A stretch of 35,304 nt of DNA from the NCBI GenBank assembly GCA_007121535.1, contig SKKK01000130.1, forward strand, positions 1-35,304. Reading direction: 5' to 3'. Positions 933 through 34,336 of the stretch are shown piece after piece; position 1 is the stretch's first letter, and the number at the start of each line of letters is the position of its first letter. Source of the stretch: Planctomycetaceae bacterium. GTDB taxonomy: Bacteria; Planctomycetota; Planctomycetia; Pirellulales; Pirellulaceae. The notes under the pieces were generated by a model. That model did not search any database, was not told the origin of the DNA, and saw only the letters and a list, made by a program, of their open reading frames with translations. Both the position numbers and the translations under genes were made by a program.

Positions 933-1103
933 TAAGCACCCGGCCAAATATTTCTTGGTGGAATCGGGCGAAAGGGGTCGGGAGGCGTTTTCGGGTGACC
1001 CGCTTCCTATGTGGTAGATCGTTGCCCAAAAACGACTCCCGACCCCGTTGCCTCCCCGTACAAGGCTACCTCGAATGGCAAGAAACTTCTGGCCGGGTGC
1101 TTA
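933..1103 (+). mobile_element. MITE-like element, full copy A (171 bp, 14-bp perfect terminal inverted repeats)
   Basis: The left end TAAGCACCCGGCCA (933-946) is the exact reverse complement of the right end (1090-1103). Inside is a second inverted pair: GGGGTCGGGAGGCGTTTTCG from 974 and AAAAACGACTCCCGACCCC ending at 1046. The whole element could fold into a long hairpin. A second full copy lies at 19541-19711 in the opposite orientation, and partial copies lie at 493-567, 17136-17170, 23884-23916 and 34173-34270. It has no coding capacity. Both ends carry TA, compatible with a TA target duplication of the Tc1/mariner/IS630 kind, but palindromy makes this ambiguous. The element ends 56 bp from the stop of the Rpn gene. 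Confidence 0.75.
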
Positions 1104-10831: not shown

Positions 10832-10883
10832 CACCGTTGAAAAAACACCAAACCGGCACACTGCCATCCACCGGCTCCCCTGA

Positions 10884-11013
10884 GCGGCATGGCGCTAGCC
10901 ACCGGCCCTTCGCCAGCGGCATGGCGCTAGCCACCGGCCCTTCGCCAGCGGCATGGCGCCATCCACCGGTTCCCAAACAACCGAAATACCGGCGGCTAGC
11001 GCCTTGTCGCTCA
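10884..11013. repeat. Tandem and inverted GCGGCATGGCGCTAGCC-type repeats
   Basis: A 32-bp unit beginning GCGGCATGGCGCTAGCCACC is present at 10884-10915 and again at 10916-10947, with a diverged third copy from 10948. An inverted counterpart, CCGGCGGCTAGCGCC then GTCGCTCA, lies at about 10990-11013, so the block can form a hairpin. The same family recurs as a cleaner palindrome at 26375-26437. The 256-bp gap from 10832 to 11087 holds no gene. Confidence 0.7.
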
Positions 11014-11087
11014 CATGAAAACACGACCGTTACTACCTTTTTCGAGTATTGTTGAGAAACTTGTTCACTTAAGAAAGCGAGAGATTC

Positions 11088-17055: not shown

Positions 17056-17135
17056 TCAAGGAAATAACGGTCGCGGAGCGACTCCGCAGATTCCAGGCGG
17101 GTACTACGGCCGCTGCTGACAGTGATGAGAAATGC

Positions 17136-17170
17136 GGGCCAAAACGATTCCCGACCCCTTCCGCCCGAAT
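17136..17170. repeat. Partial copy (E) of the MITE-like repeat
   Basis: The sequence CCAAAACGATTCCCGACCCC with its flanks matches the inner right arm of the element, in the orientation of copy B. The rest of the element is missing. Confidence 0.45.
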
Positions 17171-17290
17171 CTCGTAGCGACCCATGGCTGCCTCGGGGAT
17201 TGCATCCGTTTGGCGGCGATGCGACCATGTTCGTCTGGTTTGCTGAACGGAAGAGATTCGGGGTTCTTCGCACGGAACTGGTGTACTGCA

Positions 17291-19540
17291 ATGCCTTGGC
17301 CTTTACCTTCCGACTTTCACAGGGTGGTCCAACATCCGCAGATCGCGTTCCGTGATCCGCACCTGCAAGGCTGCCGGATCGAACGCGACGCGCTGAATCA
17401 ACCACGGGTTTGGTCGGGAGCGTTTGCGGTTGTGTACAAAGCGATGGACTGCGAGGGGCGTTATTGGGCTCTACGGGCTTTCACTTCCGAATCCCCGGAA
17501 CGCCGCGAGCACTACGAGCTGATCGGTTCGCATCTGAAGCGTCGGGCGCCGTCGTGTCTGGTGGATTTCGAGTATCGGGATGCCGCCATCCGTTCTGCGG
17601 GCGACGGGAAATGGTACCCGCTGGTCGTGATGGATTGGGTCGACGGCATGACGTTGTGGACTTGGGTACAGAGCAAGTGCCGCAAAGGCCGAGGGGTTTC
17701 GCTGGCCAAGGCTGCTCGACATTGGTGGAAACTGACAAAGGAGCTGCAAGCCGCCGAGATCGCTCACGGCGACCTGCAACATGCGAATGTCTTGATAACG
17801 CCGGCCGGGCGATTGAAGCTGGTGGATTACGACGGCATGTGCGTGCCATCGCTGGCCGGGCGGCGGAACTTGGAGATCGGCGTCCGAGCGTATCAGCATC
17901 CGCAACGGAACGAATCGACGTTGCTGACGACCAGTCTGGACAACTTTTCCGCGTTGGTCATCTACGTCGCGTTGCGGGCCTTGGCGGCCGATCCTTCGTT
18001 GTGGGCTCGATACGTTCAGCAGCCGAACTACGACAAGCTGCTGTTCCGCGCCGAGGATTTCGTGGACCGGGAACAATCGTCCCTTTATCGCGACCTGATG
18101 AACTCGCCGGAACCCGCCGTCCGGACGCTGGCCGCCAAGCTGTTCTGCTTCGCCCGCGAGAGTTTGGAACGCACGCCGCCGTTGAACGAACTGGTGGGCG
18201 AACCGTTGCGTCGCAAGGCGCCGGTACGGGCCGCTACGGACGAACGGCCTTGGGACGCTCAGGAGCCGTCGGTCATGCCGCGTGAGAAGCCAGCGGCACG
18301 GGTCGTCTTGAAAGTGATCGCCGGGCCGCTGCAGGGTCGATCCTTCTGTGCCCAACAGCACAACACCATGCTGGTCGGGCGCGGGACGGACTGTCATGTT
18401 CGAATCGTAGGCGACCGCCGAATTTCGCGGCACCATTTCCTGTTGGAACTGGTACCGCCTCACGCACGGCTTCGGGACTTGGACAGCCAGAACGGGACCT
18501 ATGTCAACGGCGTGAAGTACGGTGGACGATCCAGCGACGTCCCGAACCGGGCGAGCGATGGGCAGACGCCGGTCGAAATCGATCTGCGGCACGGCGATCA
18601 GATCACCGCCGGGCAAACGGTTCTGCTGCTGCACGTACAGGGAGTCCCGAGTGGGGCTTGCCCCACCAAACCGGAGGCCCCGGACGTGCAAAATCCGCCG
18701 GAACGGGCTGAGAGTTCGCGGGTCTTGGATCAACTGAAGATCCTTGCTCCGGTGGGAAAAGGCGCATGGGGAACCGTCTACCAAGCTCAGTTCCGCAAGA
18801 CTCAACAAACCGTGGCCCTGAAGATCGTCAACCCGGCGGTCGAGATCGGTCAGGCAGCACGTCGCAACGTCCAGCAATCGATAGCCCCGCTCCTGACGCT
18901 ACGGCATCCGAATCTGGTCTCGTTGCTGGAAGCCGGAGAAGCAGGCCAGGCATTCTACTTCGTCCAAGACTACTGCGATGGCGGCAACTTGAAGCAGTGG
19001 ATCACCGATCAGGGAGGCCGAATGACCTTCGACGCCGCGCGCGATTGGATGCTCCAGTGCCTGGACGCACTGGACTACATCCATCGTCAGCAGATGGTCC
19101 ACGGGAACATCAAGCCGGAGAACATCCTGTTGCACGTCCAGCCAGGCCAGCAGATCGCAAAGTTAGCAGATTGCGGGCTCGCTCGGATCCTGGATCAAGC
19201 CGGTTGCCTGGGAATGACCGCGACCGCACGGGCCTCGGACGATTATCACTTCCTGCCTCGCGAGCGAGTGATCGATTTCCGCGACGTGCGGCCGCAGAGC
19301 GATCTCTGGAGCCTGGCAGCCGTGTTCTATTACATGCTGACCGGCCAATTCCCCCGCGATCGGCTTGGCCAAGAACCGCTCTCGGGCATCCTGGATTCCG
19401 ACCCGATCCCGATCCGCAAACGTGACCCTCGCATTCCCGACCCCGTCGCCCGCGTCATGGACCGCGCCCTGAGCGCCCATCCCGGCAAGCGGTTCCAGCA
19501 TGCCGCATTGATGAAGGATCTTCTGCGGCAGACAAGTTGA
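17291..19540 (+). CDS. Kinase-FHA-kinase protein; second kinase domain lacks the catalytic Asp
   Basis: Three domains are visible. Residues about 35-270 are a protein-kinase-like domain with HGDLQHAN (159-166) and DYDG (179-182) in place of HRDLKPEN and DFG; the VAxK Lys appears as Arg (WALRAF). Residues about 338-450 are an FHA domain with GRG (363), the phosphopeptide-binding ISRHH (378-382) and NGT (401-403). Residues about 482-745 are a second Ser/Thr-kinase domain with a good Gly loop ([10 protein letters not shown]) and Lys511 in VALK. Here HRD is HGN (604-606), replacing the catalytic Asp by Asn, and DFG is DCG (627-629). Domain 2 is thus probably a pseudokinase and domain 1 is atypical. 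The start is set at ATG 17291 ([10 protein letters not shown]), where kinase-like similarity begins; the frame is open from 17132. The stop is followed at once by MITE-like copy B. It likely has a signalling or scaffold role. Confidence 0.85.
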
Positions 19541-19711
19541 TAAGCACCCGGCCAGAAGCTTCTTCCCATTTGGAGGTAGCCTTGCACGGGGACGCAACGG
19601 GGTCGGGAGTTGTTTTCGGTCAACGACCTACCAAATGGGAAGCGGGTCACCCGAAAACGACTCCCGCCCCCTTTCGCTCGATTCCACCAAGAAGTTTCTG
19701 GCCGGGTGCTT
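19541..19711 (-). mobile_element. MITE-like element, full copy B (about 171 bp)
   Basis: The left end TAAGCACCCGGCCA (19541-19554) starts directly after the TGA of the kinase gene, and the right end is at 19699-19711. The reverse complement aligns with copy A (933-1103) along its whole length with scattered differences, including the inner arms around GGGGTCGGGAG and ACGACTCCCG. The right end reads GCTTG rather than GCTTA. It has no coding capacity. Insertion right at a stop codon means the kinase transcript would end in this hairpin. Confidence 0.75.
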
Positions 19712-19755
19712 GCGAACCGCAGCAGCTCGGCTACCGCAATCTGCGTCCGCGAAAC

Positions 19756-19838
19756 GTAGCCGAATCCCCGAGAATTCGGGACGTTGGCGAGCGTGGCGTC
19801 TTAGTCACGAGCGCCCGAATTCTCGGGAACTCGGCTAC
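19756..19838. repeat. Palindromic GTAGCCGAAT-type repeat
   Basis: GTAGCCGAATCCCCGAGAAT followed by TCGGG pairs with CCCGAATTCTCGGG then AACTCGGCTAC, with two mismatches and a loop of about 33 nt. A sister copy is at 33980-34042. It has no gene and no obvious terminator features. Confidence 0.65.
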
Positions 19839-20387
19839 TTTCGGCAGCGATGCGCAACTTCAAAGATCCCGGTCGGACCGGTAGAATCCCGGTTCGGGTC
19901 GATGCTCCGCCAGCTTGTCGCGGGCCGCCGCGAAATCCTCGAACGACTGGAACTCTCTCGTAAAGAACCTGTCACCGTCTCTTCCTCGAAGAATGGCCGC
20001 AGAGAATCGGGAAGTGAAATCGGAAAAGTCATGGCCGTTGTCATGTCCTTGATGACCGCAGTTCGGAAAAAGTCGGAAAAAGCCGGTCGATCAGTTCAGT
20101 GGTCATTGGTCAGTGGTCAGTGGTCAGTGGTCACTGTTCTCTGTGCTCTCTGTGTTCTCTGTGGCACACGCCGAGACCTTGATCGGTCCCTGTCGTATGG
20201 CTTCCATCAAGGTGTCTCGGTCCATTACGTGCTCCTATTCTGGATCGCAAAGGGCATTTGCTGACAGATCTCGCAGACCTGTTCCGCATTGTATCCCGTT
20301 CGCGCCGCCGCCGCAAACGGAATGAATTTCGTTCTACGATTCCGACCGATCTACTCCATCCCCACCACGGCGGGTATAATCGACCGC
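19839..20387. other. Gene-free stretch with small repeats and gene relics
   Basis: No gene is supported. It holds five tandem heptads TCAGTGG (20096-20130, the second one with a single change), a CTCTGTG-rich simple stretch (about 20138-20165), a minus-strand relic (20124-20225), and ACGGAATGAATTTCGTTCTAC (20317-20337), which recurs with two changes at 34363-34383. A TATAAT at 20375-20380 lies 7 bp before the ATG of the Rpn-like relic. Confidence 0.5.
20124..20225 (-). pseudogene. Possible N-terminal relic of a small conserved planctomycete protein
   Basis: From ATG 20225 the minus strand reads MDRDTLMEAIRQGPIKVSA, which resembles the start of a family of proteins of about 70 residues that I have seen in planctomycetes. 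It then runs into the simple repeat (ATENTESTEN) and stops in the heptad array. Recognition is from memory of the pattern only. Confidence 0.3.
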
Positions 20388-23863: not shown

Positions 23864-23883
23864 GGCTGACTCGAAAGGTTACC

Positions 23884-23916
23884 GTAAATGACAAGAAATT
23901 CCTGGCCGGGTGCTTA
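23884..23916 (+). repeat. Solitary right end (F) of the MITE-like element
   Basis: It ends with TGGCCGGGTGCTTA (23903-23916), identical to the right terminal repeat of copy A, preceded by ATGACAAGAAATTCC, which resembles ATGGCAAGAAACTTC in copy A. Nothing else of the element remains. Confidence 0.65.
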
Positions 23917-26261: not shown

Positions 26262-26340
26262 GATGGTTCCTCCGGCTGCTTTAGATCGGTTCGATTCCAA
26301 AGTGAACGCCCTACGTCCGATCTTCCGTTTGGTGGCTAGT

Positions 26341-26361
26341 GCGTTGTCCAGGCGAGATCTT
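26341..26361 (-). promoter_or_regulatory. Shared upstream motif, copy 1
   Basis: GCGTTGTCCAGGCG, one variable base, then GATCTT occurs here and at 27791-27811 with a single mismatch. It lies 80 bp before the DUF4838 start; the other copy lies 75 bp before the M14-like start. On the minus strand it contains TGGACA, a possible -35. No good -10 follows here. Confidence 0.45.
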
Positions 26362-26374
26362 GGGGTCGCGATGA

Positions 26375-26437
26375 GTGAGCGGCACGCGTTAGCCGCCGGT
26401 GGCGTGCAGAACCGGCGGCTAGCGCCCTGCCGCTCAC
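26375..26437. repeat. Palindromic GTGAGCGGCA/CCGCTCAC repeat
   Basis: GTGAGCGGCACGCGTTAGCC then GCCGGT pairs with ACCGGCGGCTAGCGCC then CTGCCGCTCAC around a loop of about 11 nt, forming a hairpin of about 63 nt between two minus-strand genes. It is the same family as the block at 10884-11013. Confidence 0.7.
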
Positions 26438-26474
26438 AATCCGCATTCTTCTCACGTCTTCCCATGTCGATCCA

Positions 26475-27769: not shown

Positions 27770-27811
27770 ATTATAACAACTTGTGCCAGGGCGTTGTCCA
27801 GGCGTGATCTT
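27770..27811 (-). promoter_or_regulatory. Candidate promoter with shared motif, copy 2
   Basis: On the minus strand TGGACA (27795-27800) is followed after 19 bp by TATAAT (27770-27775), a slightly long but plausible sigma-70-type promoter about 54 bp before the M14-like start. The -35 part lies inside the shared motif (27791-27811) also found before the DUF4838 gene. Confidence 0.45.
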
Positions 27812-33979: not shown

Positions 33980-34042
33980 GTAGCCGAATTCACCAGAATT
34001 CGGTTATTTTTGAGCATTCCGAATTCTGGCGAATTCGGCTAC
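33980..34042. repeat. Palindromic GTAGCCGAATTC repeat
   Basis: GTAGCCGAATTCACCAGAAT then TCGG pairs with CCGAATTCTGG then CGAATTCGGCTAC with one mismatch over 24 bp, around a 15-nt loop. It starts 35 bp after the MutS-like stop and is of the same family as 19756-19838. Confidence 0.7.
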
Positions 34043-34172: not shown

Positions 34173-34270
34173 AGCCTTGCTTGGGCGACGCAACGGGGTC
34201 GGGCGTCGGTTTCGGGCAACGATCAACCACGTGGCAAGCAGCTCGCCCGAAAACGACTCCCGACCCCTTC
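34173..34270 (-). repeat. Truncated copy (C) of the MITE-like element
   Basis: From AGCCTTGC through GACGCAACGGGGTCGGG to CCGAAAACGACTCCCGACCC it follows copy B (19541-19711) in the same orientation, with scattered changes, but both TAAGCACCCGGCCA ends are missing. The whole gap from 34043 to 34394 contains this, the palindrome at 34337-34376 and no gene. Confidence 0.6.
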
Positions 34271-34336
34271 CGGGAAATGCGACAGTCATTCGATCGCCGA
34301 TCCGCACGCGGTCTCCGGCCGCAACCAGAGCAAAAC

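Follow-up and report, generated by a model that had tools for sequence, protein, structure and literature searches.

A 171-bp planctomycete repeat as a probable IS630-type MITE with a different, probably captured mobile hairpin inside

What moves a 171-bp repeat that stands twice in a stretch of 35,304 nucleotides from a Planctomycetaceae bacterium (contig SKKK01000130.1; this whole stretch is the window below), and what is the second inverted pair that it encloses? The repeat is in all likelihood a non-autonomous MITE of IS630 type, served by an outside transposase, and its interior a different, probably captured mobile hairpin. Copy A (933–1103, forward strand) has TA at both ends, and copy B (19541–19711, reverse strand) has the final A (the next base) changed to G. 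The earlier note, made from the letters of the window, had the two in opposite orientation and aligning end to end, with perfect terminal repeats of 14 bp in A and of 13 bp in B, where the last A has become G; both statements are borne out. The terminal repeats of A and B begin TAAGCACCCGGCCA (the MITE-type outer end is also written AGCACCCGGCCAGA). Those of A occupy 933–957 on the forward strand (25 nt, 14 perfect) and 1079–1103 on the reverse strand (25 nt); with mismatches allowed, the arms measure 25 nt in A and 23 nt in B. Each copy holds a nested 71-bp hairpin without assigned strand (975–1045 in A, 19600–19670 in B). Mechanically listed open reading frames overlap both copies, and the MITE copies vary by indels in the alignment of genome copies.

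Four partial copies had also been listed for the window, and they fared unequally. Two keep inner MITE sequence beside hairpin arms: that at 17136–17170 consists of inner MITE flank and one hairpin arm (17136–17171, no strand), and that at 34173–34270 is a decayed MITE without recognisable ends (34184–34272, no strand), formed by a hairpin at 34196–34266 and inner flank. The fragment at 23884–23916 is re-read as the right end of a MITE (23875–23916, forward strand, 42 nt, 83% to A) with TGGCCGGGTGCTTA intact. The fourth, at 493–567, is the hairpin standing alone (498–568, no strand), with neither the ends nor the inner flanks of the MITE.

The first base of copy B lies directly 3' of the TGA stop of an open reading frame that ends at 19540. 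The gene concerned (17132–19540) encodes a product in which FHA and protein kinase domains are recognised. Relatives (two compared, one cut by a contig edge) resemble it only from residue 44–52 onwards, so that translation probably starts further downstream than the first ATG, and on the same ground the idea that the fragment at 17136–17171 belongs to the kinase protein was rejected. In the genus-mates G009 and G104, orthologous sequence covers the left flank of B up to 19541, and the opposite side is unrelated; the downstream neighbour of the kinase gene differs between the window and these genus-mates (G009:C1029, G104:C680), with the break at the MITE boundary. The window holds other repeats as well. 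One inverted repeat family, GTAGCCGAAT...ATTCGGCTAC, occurs at 19753–19841, near copy B, and at 33980–34042, and short repeats containing the motifs GGCGCTAGCC and AGTGCGTTGTCC are found at 10883–11015, 26335–26438 and 27785–27811.

The earlier note expected a very high copy number in the genome, and the counts agree. The window's own genome (G000; a draft of 9.32 Mb in 706 contigs, 95% complete) holds 40 near-full-length copies at 85–100% identity, these being the 40 scored among 514 first-look candidates. Exact TAAGCACCCGGCCA matches there 93+87 = 180 times, with 0+0 for the reversed control; AGCACCCGGCCA with at most one mismatch gives 243+239 matches vs 49+44 for its control, and the 25-nt end with at most three mismatches 163+158. 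The further copies also share their boundaries, as the 30 that were aligned with flanks demonstrate, apart from point changes among the last bases of L013, L017, L018, L021, L028 and L029. The flanks of these 30 are unrelated to one another, save for one right flank, another repeat, common to L019 and L029. Many MITE copies are one-ended or truncated. Across 149 genomes of the family, the 25-nt end occurs in five: G000, G009 (81+90), G104 (20+28), G089 (1+4) and G016 (1+0); it is absent from the genus member G073, and the reversed control matches once among the 149, in G105. When five candidates per genome were scored, only G000, G009 and G104 yielded MITEs of full length. A separate small element of 98–100 bp with GCACCGTTCGAGAAATAACTG ends is present at L019, L068, L090, L298 and L342 (G000) and at L108 (G073). 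It has TTA or TAA on both sides in five of these six listed copies, and in L019 and L029 it adjoins the TA MITE exactly at the latter's right end.

Comparison of an interrupted site with its empty counterpart provides insight into the insertion itself. One copy (L009; G000:C700:1400-1570) sits within a transposase gene of IS91 type, recognised as Zn_Tnp_IS91 on the joined flanks. The genus-mate G104 is uninterrupted at this site: 128 bp align without a gap at 95.3% identity, and a single TA stands at the junction. The joined flanks also give a gap-free alignment over 129 aa with four proteins of other genomes; among the open frames listed across joined flanks, this is the one that was followed. 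The single TA of the empty site indicates that the insertion consisted of TA + AGCACC...GGTGCT + TA. Duplication of TA is the pattern expected of IS630/Tc1 elements. The TA is intact at 40 of 55 left ends and 45 of 55 right ends, where the 55 'copies' are pairings of ends from fetched loci, some of them overlapping (L046 and L116 appear twice each). L009 is the only clean empty site, so that the search for empty sites with TA duplications proposed earlier yielded one. The joined flanks of L022 have a 43-bp, 81% match that looks like a single-TA site and is too short to use. The window's own sites have no usable empty site in relatives, copy A being without a two-sided match.

The inner inverted pair had been noted as belonging to each full copy. 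The pair is real, but it is a separate and more widely spread repeat rather than a mere part of the MITE. It forms a hairpin of 71–73 bp in which the arms are conserved and the loop varies. Nine of the 149 family genomes, in five genera, contain exact hairpins, with controls at 0 (G000 91, G009 54, G084 17, G120 11, G104 8, G073 6, G065 5, G101 2, G016 1). One position pair in the arms changes together, being G-C in 61 distinct hairpins, T-A in 19 and another combination in 7. At locus L310 of G065, inverted hairpin arms enclose a gene for a Y1 tyrosine transposase, and a complete hairpin stands on either side of it. This gene scores 48.8 bits against Pfam Y1_Tnp (cut-off 23) and does not reach the cut-off of the NCBIfam REP-transposase model (67.4 vs 80 bits); Y1_Tnp is the only domain found in its product, a C-terminal HTH domain being absent (Pfam, E<=0.001). 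Related Y1 genes, in G009 and G120, are likewise flanked on either side by similar arms of GGGG type. In all, three of 70 loci examined, from 108 Y1 matches in nine genomes, are flanked by arms (one by exact and two by similar arms), and the 11 Y1 matches of the own genome include no locus with the exact arm pattern. The spread over nine genomes and five genera, the stand-alone copies and the arms around the G065 gene together argue for a separate repeat. Most likely it owes its spread to a TIRYT/RAYT-type tyrosine (HUH) transposase; that the hairpin would be mobile in its own right is suggested by the G065 gene and by the published related repeats discussed below.

How, then, did the hairpin come to lie inside the MITE? 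It is found inside 44 of the 55 end pairings; among the remaining 11 are truncations, three longer copies and two of 130 bp. The longer copies (L048, L091 and L094) have an extra GC-rich hairpin in the loop. Sequence like the GGCGCTAGCC/AGTGCGTTGTCC repeats of the window also occurs inside L091. The 130-bp copies, L041 in G000 and L129 in G089 (another genus), have the same TAAGCACCCGG ends and a different interior hairpin, GGACATTCCTGTC. Conversely, G009 has the same 71-bp hairpin inside an element of 161–162 bp with GGATCGGC ends (L333, L392 and L396). All three complete copies of this element have TTA or TAA duplications, and its left-end forms are present in G000 too, for example at L032. 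Two element families therefore carry the same hairpin, and since they differ in duplication length, they presumably use different transposases. A first comparison of loops gave a mean similarity of 82% (39 hairpins) inside MITEs vs 46% (17) outside. Because it mixed genera, it was repeated per genome. In G000 the loops of MITE hairpins are 86% similar (32), those of stand-alone hairpins 65% (4) and random 31-mers 29%; in G009 the values are 61% (4) for MITE hairpins vs 74% (5) for stand-alone ones, and the contrast seen in G000 is absent. These means leave out hairpins that are not 71 nt long (1 of 40 inside and 10 of 27 outside in the first comparison, 1 of 33 in G000 in the per-genome one). 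The similarity in G000 would fit, if weakly, a single capture followed by amplification, as many of the copies were picked for likeness to A and G009 lacks the contrast. A bolder reading, which we consider rather unlikely, is that planctomycete MITEs repeatedly acquire the same tyrosine-transposase hairpin and become composites that would have two independent modes of spread, cut-and-paste through the outer ends and single-strand copying through the inner hairpin, which would perhaps prefer palindromes as targets.

We return to the reading of the outer ends as those of an IS630-type MITE. A Tc1/mariner/IS630-type transposase acting in trans had been proposed from the TA ends, and an IS630-like element with the same ends was to be sought. 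Such an element is found in G016, which belongs to another genus of the same family. It is 1165 bp long (G016:C163) and has TA at both outer ends, and its transposase is recognised by DDE_3 (E=1e-30) and by the NCBIfam IS630 model (109.4 bits, cut-off 100). The gene is broken by stops and frame changes, and the element is present in a single copy. The one 25-nt end of G016 is the left end of this element, which shares 14 of 14 and 23–24 of 28 bases with the MITE ends; the right end agrees more weakly (11/14 and 16–19/28). A 192-aa query from the element finds seven places in five of 396 genomes of the order at E<=1e-20, G016 not being among the five. TAAGCAC- or TGAGCACC-type starts stand on both ends in five of the seven places, 1.14–1.20 kb apart, and the remaining two, copies in G105, have one such end each. 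A scan of GTDB contigs returned 70 loci, the query itself being one of them, and the closest four are all planctomycete records. Exact TAAGCACC stands just past the gene in eight of the 42 loci scanned for it (about 0.4 expected by an estimate of our own, which is no tool control); four of these eight, from G016, G124 and G088, had entered the counts above. The IS630 genes of the genus-mates G009 and G104 have no matching ends that pair at IS630 distance (14-mer, at most four mismatches; in G009 two stretches were also read directly).

The earlier proposal is thus upheld in the TA duplication at one empty site and in an IS630 element that shares the 14-bp end, and it falls short in the own genome. 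The 192-aa query finds no transposase of this IS630 clade in G000 at E<=1e-20, a draft in which absence is no proof, and two weak DDE_3 fragments are all that was seen. As no partner gene was found there, we infer from the end sequences that the MITE would be moved in trans by a transposase of this clade. The same absence is what another TA-duplicating transposase family would also lead one to expect, the likeness to IS630 then being coincidence. The small elements of G000 with TTA or TAA duplications point in that direction too, as other enzymes evidently use GCACC-type ends. Against this, the agreement with the left end of the G016 element concerns a TA-flanked IS630, and five related IS630 elements are bounded at left and right by TAAGCAC-type ends, which makes coincidence improbable. 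Much harder to credit is a tyrosine transposase that spreads all 171 bp, with the outer ends as mere passengers. The hairpin does occur alone in more genera than the MITE, but the TA duplication and the sharp outer boundaries speak against this proposal, and the same-ended copies without this hairpin contradict it. Equally hard to credit is a host sequence kept for a function, such as a terminator or an RNA processing hairpin, and no mobile DNA at all: the fold is very stable (z-scores vs shuffles of -8.15 for A as DNA and -9.17 for B as RNA) and copy B starts right past a stop codon, but Rfam has no match anywhere in the window at gathering scores, flanks are unrelated, one-ended or truncated copies abound, and the insertion within the transposase gene at L009, with its empty site, refutes host function as the origin; the host may later have put the MITE to use.

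The assignment as an IS630-type MITE is supported by the common boundaries, the TA duplication at one site, the high copy number and the G016 element with the same 14-bp end. We propose that an IS630-family DDE transposase, supplied from elsewhere, would bind the terminal repeats of about 25 bp and move the MITE, inserting it at TA, which would be duplicated. An ancestor of the 171-bp elements probably picked up the hairpin, which would now be a passenger.

By the features tested, the MITE is of a known kind (RUP-like, IS630-type), with a new sequence family and an unusual nested cargo. RUP of Streptococcus pneumoniae is described as a MITE of IS630-Spn1 in the cited text of PMC2229807. Like RUP as presented there, the planctomycete repeat is a non-coding element of about 100–200 bp with TA ends and IS630-like ends that inserts in IS transposase genes; unlike RUP, it has an unrelated sequence, is longer, holds a separate mobile hairpin, and has its matching IS630 known only from another genus and in broken form. 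Correia/NEMIS and ERIC are likewise small, with terminal repeats and TA ends; their sequences are unrelated, and the cited sections of PMC2229807 describe no tyrosine-transposase repeat inside them. The inner hairpin in turn resembles the TIR repeats of TIRYTs in its arm layout around a Y1 gene (cited passages of PMC3733652, PMC6006769): in the former, inverted arms that start with GGGG enclose a Y1 transposase gene and are found again in the genome as pairs, and the motif GGGGWSAS is attributed to some TIRs. The hairpin arm, GGGGTCGG, has seven of the eight bases of this motif and so differs from it by one base, and the G065 protein would be at most a putative member of the TIRYT groups. A C-terminal HTH domain marks the transposases of subclass 2.1, according to the cited part of PMC6006769. 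With REPINs, as characterised in the cited portion of PMC3116915, the hairpin shares two conserved inverted ends, a variable spacer, a fixed length, the hairpin form and a tyrosine transposase nearby; unlike them, it has no GTAG or GTGG tag in its arm on either strand. Nesting as such is not new, since in A. variabilis and H. neapolitanus, according to the cited passages of PMC3733652, REP pairs lie inside longer palindromes. There the palindromes count as targets rather than transposons, and none was found without REPs; the MITE differs from this account in that its outer ends agree with those of IS630 elements and are also seen around other interiors. Among the titles and abstract starts searched, a partial coverage of the literature, we found neither an IS630 MITE of planctomycetes nor a REP or TIR repeat in a MITE, nor, there or in the cited passages, a description of one hairpin carried by two MITE families.

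Through its end sequence and one empty site, an abundant planctomycete repeat family is tied here to a named transposase family. Anyone annotating such genomes will encounter these repeats. A repeat of one mobile system rides inside small elements of another, and the nesting provides a natural setting in which to test whether the tyrosine-transposase hairpin targets palindromes or helps the MITE to spread.
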